Assembly (NCBI RefSeq): GCF_000328525.1
Contig: NC_019964.1
Location: 1,550,001-1,614,000, forward strand
Source of the DNA: Halovivax ruber XH-70
GTDB lineage: Archaea; Halobacteriota; Halobacteria; Halobacteriales; Natrialbaceae
Direction: 5' to 3'
Length of the DNA stretch: 64,000 nucleotides
In this document: in pieces, positions 44,039-55,861 of the stretch
Position numbering within the stretch: position 1 is the stretch's first letter
Layout: each line of letters begins with the position of its first letter
The notes under the pieces: generated by a model
Told to the model about the DNA's origin: nothing
Seen by the model: only the letters and a program-made list of their open reading frames with translations
Database searches by the model: none
Position numbers and translations under genes: made by a program

Positions 44039-44084
44039 GTCGGACCGACAACGCTTTTTGACCGGGCAGAAAACGACCACCTGC

Positions 44085-44166
44085 GGTGGGGTGGCAGAGC
44101 GGCCTATTGCGCCTGCCTTGAAAGCAGGTGGCGTCAGCCTCATGGGTTCAAATCCCATCCCCACCG
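44085..44166 (+). tRNA. tRNA-Ser(UGA)
   Basis: The 82-nt gene folds as a class II tRNA. The acceptor arms are GGTGGGG (44085-44091) and CCCCACC (44159-44165) with G at 44166. The anticodon stem-loop CCTGC-CTTGAAA-GCAGG gives anticodon TGA. The variable arm is TGGCGTCAGCCTCA-like, and the T arm is ATGGG-TTCAAAT-CCCAT. CCA is not encoded. A 3'-end fragment of this gene recurs twice downstream. Confidence 0.95.
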
Positions 44167-44402
44167 TCTTTTGCGAGGAACGGACGTGACGAGCAAAGCG
44201 TAGACATGGGATTTGAAGGAGACCAGTCGCGCGCAACGAAGTGAGCACGTCTGGGCGTTGTTCAAATCCCATCCCCACCGTCTTCTGCTCCGAACGAAGG
44301 TGAGGAGCGAAGCGGATACGGTGGGATTTGAATTATACCGAGGTTCTGTGAGCGGAGCGATCAGGTTCTCGGGGGTAGTTCAAATCCCAACCCCACCGCG
44401 TT
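44146..44402 (+). repeat. tRNA-Ser 3'-end tandem repeats with inverted arms
   Basis: The 25-nt stretch at the end of the tRNA (44146-44170: T-arm to acceptor 3' strand and four nt beyond) is copied exactly at 44260-44284 and, with four mismatches, at 44378-44402. Units of 114 and 118 nt result. Each unit also contains an inverted copy of the T-arm part: ATGGGATTTGAA at 44206-44217 and TGGGATTTGAA at 44322-44332, which can pair with the next direct copy as 12- and 11-bp stems. The two unit interiors are homologous, so the units arose by tandem duplication. No integrase gene is in the window. Confidence 0.92.
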
Positions 44403-55787: not shown

Positions 55788-55861
55788 GCCAGGGGAGCAT
55801 GGGCGGTTCATGCACTCGACTTGTAATCGAGACTTCGTGGGTTCAAATCCCACCCCTGGCT
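55788..55861 (+). tRNA. tRNA-Thr(UGU)
   Basis: The 74-nt gene has acceptor strands GCCAGGG (55788-55794) and CCCTGGC (55854-55860), a D-arm GCAT..ATGC, an anticodon arm CTCGA-CTTGTAA-TCGAG with anticodon TGT, and T-arm GTGGG-TTCAAAT-CCCAC. The discriminator is T. No intron and no encoded CCA are seen. Unlike the tRNA-Ser gene it has no repeats downstream. Confidence 0.93.

Follow-up and report, generated by a model that had tools for sequence, protein, structure and literature searches.

Why should the 3' end of a tRNA gene be repeated, in both direct and inverted orientation, in the DNA that follows it? The tRNA-Ser(TGA) gene of Halovivax ruber XH-70 raises this question within the window, by which we mean the whole stretch of 64,000 nucleotides that was analysed. 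A first-pass annotation had described an exact and then an imperfect recurrence of the tRNA-Ser tail, an inverted T-arm copy in each unit, and homologous unit interiors with a GCTCC/GGAGC stem. These observations were borne out (Table 1): their coordinates were correct within one base, the interiors of units 1 and 2 are homologous, and the stem lies in unit 2. The inverted T-box of unit 1 pairs with both neighbouring direct copies, and the inverted T-boxes of this array can in general pair with the tRNA, with their own tail copy or with an adjacent copy. Folded as single-stranded DNA, the predicted T-box-closed hairpins of the array (4 of 4) each beat 200 of 200 dinucleotide shuffles, with z values from -3.3 to -6.1. 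An Rfam search of the units returned tRNA as the sole family, the scores for sX4 and miRNA falling far below gathering.

Table 1. Features of the array at tRNA-Ser(TGA), window positions 44084-44398.
Feature	Position	Strand	Support
tRNA-Ser(TGA), host gene	44084-44168	+	ARAGORN; Rfam tRNA 58.2 bits
tRNA-Ser(TGA) nt 54-73, TTCAAATCCCATCCCCACCG, copied segment	44147-44166	+	
Unit 1, module L: T-rich start, hairpin 1	44167-44207	+	sequence reading; L modules tRNA-specific
Unit 1, inverted T-box ATGGGATTTGAA	44206-44217	-	12/12 complementary to tRNA nt 54-65; cognacy test
Unit 1, module R: hairpin 2, class AGACCAGTCGC..ACGTCTGGGCGTTG	44218-44260	+	stem alignment, folding
Unit 1, direct copy of tRNA-Ser nt 54-73	44261-44280	+	20/20
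Unit 2, module L: GCTCC/GGAGC hairpin	44281-44322	+	folding
Unit 2, inverted T-box plus flank TGGGATTTGAATTA	44322-44335	-	13/14
Unit 2, module R: class TTATACCGAG..CTCGGGGGTAG	44333-44378	+	
Unit 2, direct copy of tRNA-Ser nt 54-73	44379-44398	+	19/20

Comparison of the window stretch with its own genome (G000; 3.22 Mb, one contig, 42 tRNA genes) unearthed 14 other matches, and all seven that were inspected lie directly behind other tRNA genes, nearly all of them repeating the adjoining tRNA's own tail. When all tRNA flanks were surveyed, allowing up to five mismatches (<=5), 24 of the 42 tRNA genes were found to be followed by a total of 37 tail copies, arranged as one to three tandem units per tRNA, each with its own tRNA's nt 54-73 and a cognate inverted T-box. 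Two other Halovivax species carry such copies at 25 of 41 tRNA genes each (42 and 44 tail copies), and a genome from a different family (G058) has them at 12 of 21 sampled tRNAs, while the same detector scored none of 26 tRNAs in a non-haloarchaeal control from another order of the same phylum (G169). The layout at tRNA-Ser is thus not a product of chance, since 24 of the 42 genes share it, each with its own tail, and the control genome is negative. The first-pass annotation had suggested a new family of hairpin repeats that started from a tRNA end; this proved right and far more general than was foreseen, the genome-wide and class-wide extent being what that first reading had missed.

We also scanned one genome per species (84,980 species) with a motif built from the inverted T-box together with the 5' arm of the hairpin of module R. 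The scan yielded 105 matching stretches, and in the 80 loci listed 76 of 86 matches have a tRNA gene just upstream in the same orientation, most with a tail copy that matches it; pattern matches sit at tRNA genes and are not dispersed. Four non-haloarchaeal matches among the loci listed (L076, L079, L110 and L116) lack a tRNA and were regarded as chance. In a sample of the phylum, 20 of 40 genomes of the same order were positive for the pattern against 0 of 157 others, and since the motif covers one class of R module only, its absence from a genome does not equal absence of arrays. In all, arrays were found behind about 35 tRNA species. No unit matched IMG/VR viral contigs or phages, and the one match in a plasmid search, to an 827-kb Natronorubrum replicon, is not evidence of mobility, as that replicon carries a ribosomal protein gene. 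We found no description of the arrays in the open-access literature; a prior description is possible, as most subscription journals and bioRxiv lay outside the search.

Several tRNA loci stand apart from this distribution. The window's second tRNA gene, tRNA-Thr(TGT) at 55788-55861, has no array in G000 and two units in the congeneric G001. The tRNA-Ser(GCT), tRNA-Leu(CAG) and tRNA-Ala(TGC) genes of G000 are array-free in all three Halovivax genomes, and by eye their 3' flanks appear to enter ribosomal protein genes or the rRNA operon directly; this reading of three flanks suggests that arrays avoid co-transcribed tRNAs. An integrated element as the cause of an array-free tRNA was sampled at tRNA-Ala(CGC): in G000 about 4.4 kb lie between this tRNA and the flank that in G003 directly follows the array (L265/L266), with no tail copy at the far end of the insertion and with G003's unit absent. 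At least five G000 tRNA genes, namely tRNA-Arg-TCT, Ala-CGC, Tyr, Met and Pro-GGG (L014, L019, L034, L042 and L049, respectively), are followed by related small ORFs that start after GGTGGTCGGCGTGA and encode a zinc-ribbon-like motif, EFRCxxCxARCTRLLDG. Most of these tRNAs are array-free, and the ORFs could represent a second tRNA-linked element family.

Each unit is built in the order module L, inverted T-box, module R and direct tail copy of nt 54-73. Module L has a T-rich start and a hairpin with a GARCAA..GYGAGC-like loop, the inverted T-box is complementary to tRNA nt 54-63 or 54-64, and module R is a hairpin of one of several classes whose 5' and 3' tags are paired; the tail copy almost always has a G directly before it. 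Units are mostly about 110-240 nt long, with interiors of mostly 80-220 nt of hairpin sequence. Among 266 distinct units, the tail copy is exact in 132 and has at most one difference in 200, and 55 carry a one-base indel, often TTCAcAATC. An extra T-loop base in otherwise exact tail copies (TTCAcAATC, TTCAtAATC or TTCAacATC) is frequent at the unrelated tRNAs Lys, Thr, Phe, Pro and Ala-CGC in many genera.

Both T-boxes, direct and inverted, match the host tRNA. Scored against its own tRNA, the inverted T-box reached 283, compared with a maximum of 270 across 20,000 permutations of tRNAs, and a second such test gave 2263 versus 2045+-9 permuted. At tRNA nt 57, which is A or G, the inverted copy carries the corresponding base in 235 of 249 units, and where near-identical R modules lie behind different tRNAs the base in the inverted T-box is of the local type 66 times and of the partner's type 6 times. 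We found no direct tail copy with a foreign acceptor end; a single candidate for a chimaeric tail, with the T-box of one tRNA and the acceptor of another, turned out to be a genuine downstream tRNA.

Comparison between species revealed gain or loss of units beside the tRNA, changes in unit order and swapping of halves at the T-box. Units follow tRNA-Ser(TGA) in four of five Halovivax species, which is not the picture, named by the first-pass annotation as contrary to its reading, of units absent from close relatives and matching the end of a known integrative element. Their order at this locus is A-B in G000 and B'-A' in G003, with other combinations in G001 and G004, and the locus is empty in G002. 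The order of two units is likewise swapped between G000 and G003 at Val-CAC, the arrays at Thr-CGT, Ile, Asp and Gly-TCC have traded halves with the inverted T-box as the point of exchange, and Gly-TCC of G001 displays an ABAB pattern. At Glu-TTC, G003 and G000 differ by exactly one tRNA-proximal unit, and Met and Arg-GCG likewise show single-unit gain or loss on the tRNA-proximal side, with more proximal units. Tail decay is polar: the distal copy is the worse one in 23 arrays and the better one in 1 (p=3e-6), and in other genera distal copies are worse in 25 cases versus 4. The two modules differ in their movement: in 45 of 45 cases the best cross-genome counterpart of an L module lay behind the same tRNA, whereas this held for 42 of 63 R modules, which turn up behind various tRNAs. 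In one locus (L100) a script detected an R module inverted between its T-boxes, and a second inverted R module was recognized by eye (L058).

Is the pairing within the units maintained at the level of DNA or of RNA? Across 114 class-1 R modules, one stem pair is Watson-Crick in 112 with four pair types, against 46 expected by shuffling; the four core columns contain no G.T, and beside them stand a bulged G and near-constant mismatches of the types G.G, A.C and T.T. The hairpin stems of all L and R modules together gave 29 G.T and 33 A.C, whereas the acceptor and T stems of tRNAs in the same genomes have 24 G.T and 0 A.C. Most A.C in the R stems come from a recurrent position, and outside such columns the numbers are small (8 G.T, 4 A.C). 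Strictly Watson-Crick covariation that lacks the G.U excess of tRNA stems favours a DNA-level process, and G.T and A.C should be equally rare if the two arms are corrected together on DNA. With these modest counts, the case for a process that acts on DNA and not on RNA is good rather than conclusive. The mismatches and the bulged G kept in module R suggest recognition by a protein, something that template switching alone fails to predict.

The reading that we favour, at even odds of being right as a whole, is that the tRNA-Ser feature is a two-unit member of Halobacteria-wide arrays of non-coding palindromic DNA cassettes that are anchored on tRNA 3' ends and grow there by exchange at T-boxes, while template switching keeps the inverted arms alike. 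Units would be duplicated, deleted and reordered through exchange between the direct tRNA tails of 20 bp, the array growing beside the tRNA and decaying toward its distal end. Inverted-repeat arms are known to be homogenised, and their spacers inverted, by template switching (PMC8604942); between the inverted T-boxes this process would keep the inverted copy matched to the tRNA and occasionally flip the R spacer, and as the tRNA is held constant under selection, correction would run from the tRNA to the array. Such correction of quasi-palindromes explains why matched arms change together and how a spacer is inverted, but it is a mutation mechanism, not an element, and on its own leaves the conserved R family and its spread between tRNAs unexplained. 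The T-loop TTC(A/G)AATC, common to nearly all tRNAs, may let R modules move between tRNA genes; exchanges that shift an acceptor end would break a tRNA and be lost, and module L would stay put because it is attached to the tRNA-specific acceptor end. Ordinary homologous transfer could account for spread between species. For the host the arrays are probably of little benefit, and they would behave as selfish or by-product DNA anchored at tRNAs.

The closest known system consists of the repeats at E. coli tyrT-tyrV/RttR (Rfam RF00391, RtT), which also lie in tandem directly behind a tRNA gene. Each RtT unit ends in a 19-nt copy of the tRNA 3' end and holds an inverted GGGGAAGGAT that pairs with that copy across a hairpin, so the direct-plus-inverted layout is common to both. 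Having the same layout at one tRNA, RtT provides a bacterial counterpart of the haloarchaeal arrangement, from which it differs in modularity and breadth: RtT occupies a single tRNA locus with near-identical units, whereas the haloarchaeal units occur behind about 35 tRNA species, have exchangeable L and R modules and carry a T-loop-centred inverted copy that is cognate to each tRNA. The RF00391 covariance model matched neither the window nor any of five Halovivax loci, against four matches in an E. coli control; in E. coli K-12 (1286000-1288200; L264) RtT matches also lie between tyrT and tyrV. We know of no agreed mechanism for RtT repeats, and found no explanation for the origin of the tyrT layout in the open-access literature.

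That the E. coli repeat is annotated as a small RNA lends something to an explanation at the RNA level, in which the units are read-through trailers of the tRNA whose T-arm-like hairpins act on tRNA 3' processing, as RNase Z decoys (a role that the first-pass annotation had considered for co-transcribed units), as terminators or as trailer structure. The T-rich start of the units directly behind the tRNA, the good folding of their structures and the lack of arrays at tRNAs apparently followed closely by co-transcribed genes would also fit. RNase Z substrates need the 5' acceptor strand, however, which the direct tail copies lack, and fast gain, loss and reordering, with empty loci in sister species, speak against such a function, as does, indirectly, the missing G.U excess, which leaves the decoy proposal unsupported; we consider an RNA function improbable. 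Less probable still is that the units are scars left by larger tRNA-targeting elements, such as proviruses or plasmids, that repeatedly integrated with the tRNA tail as attachment site and were lost again. Direct tail copies do resemble attR sites, the 3' ends of tRNAs are frequent targets of archaeal elements, and tyrosine-integrase islands in tRNA genes likewise leave the tRNA intact with displaced copies of its 3' end behind it. From the repeated tRNA-targeted integration put forward by the first-pass annotation, the gain and loss of single units at the tRNA-proximal end with the tRNA left intact can be retained, but no larger element was found: the units, unlike such islands, are short, contain neither an element nor an integrase gene (they are too short for a gene), match no virus or phage, and have interiors that form one homologous hairpin family behind some 35 tRNA species, and their cognate inverted T-boxes, matching the host, would go unexplained. 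We regard as similarly remote a short transposable element of REP/REPIN or casposon type whose 20-bp target duplication would be set by the structure of the tRNA. Such a target-site duplication could account for the tail copy, the ends are palindromic, and REP/REPIN sequences with their RAYT transposases are also short imperfect palindromes in inverted pairs, non-coding and numerous per genome. The haloarchaeal units, by contrast, lie behind tRNA genes instead of being dispersed, and their ends are fitted to the host tRNA; the phylogenetic profile led us to reject the Y1 transposase (PF01797) as mover, given that it is missing from array-bearing genomes such as G003, G004, G011 and G058 and present in pattern-free ones.

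An integron-like process, with hairpin cassettes being inserted at the T-loop of tRNAs by a site-specific recombinase dedicated to the task, deserves to be weighed more seriously, although we think it unlikely. The tRNA tail would be the entry site, and folded single-stranded hairpins (with T-box stem, mismatched spacer, bulge and variable loop) would be the recombining sites. Integron cassette arrays (attC/attI) share with the haloarchaeal ones hairpin sites with mismatches and a bulge, growth proximal to the entry site and cassette reordering, and the polarity of the arrays and the conserved mismatches and bulge of module R are in line with this. Archaeal integrases favour tRNA 3' ends (PMC8371274), and an Xer-like tyrosine recombinase, mostly single-copy, is encoded in 50 of 50 complete genomes, that of G000 at positions 1410115-1411125. 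Unlike those of integrons, the haloarchaeal cassettes carry no genes, their interiors being mostly 80-220 nt of hairpin sequence, and their exchange points are direct and inverted with a tRNA tail as entry site. No recombinase is linked to the arrays, PF00589 and the Xer-like gene also occur in pattern-free genomes, and since almost all sampled genomes encode tyrosine recombinases a presence/absence profile cannot decide the matter. An integron integrase (IntI) was not found in G000, where the one of three PF00589 matches that was scored reached 23.6 bits against a cut-off of 265 bits, and inverted T-boxes re-adapted to each tRNA would require an extra templating step. That Halobacteria possess a host-encoded integron-like system, whose T-box-reading recombinase captures folded DNA hairpins at tRNA T-loops with tRNA genes as entry sites, appears doubtful to us.

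Cassettes growing at tRNA ends by T-box exchange and template switching, the reading that we favour, bear on how tRNA loci are viewed. For annotators, partial tRNA copies are not always island ends. The likeness to E. coli tyrT points to one of two things, tRNA ends that are unstable in general or a mechanism common to both systems, and renders the choice testable. tRNA genes rank with the most conserved genes of a genome and are classic docking sites for mobile DNA; in Halobacteria the DNA on their 3' side nevertheless rearranges quickly, and the rules can be read from sequence alone, with about 35 tRNA species serving as natural replicates of one process in which exchange, template switching and polarity can be measured.
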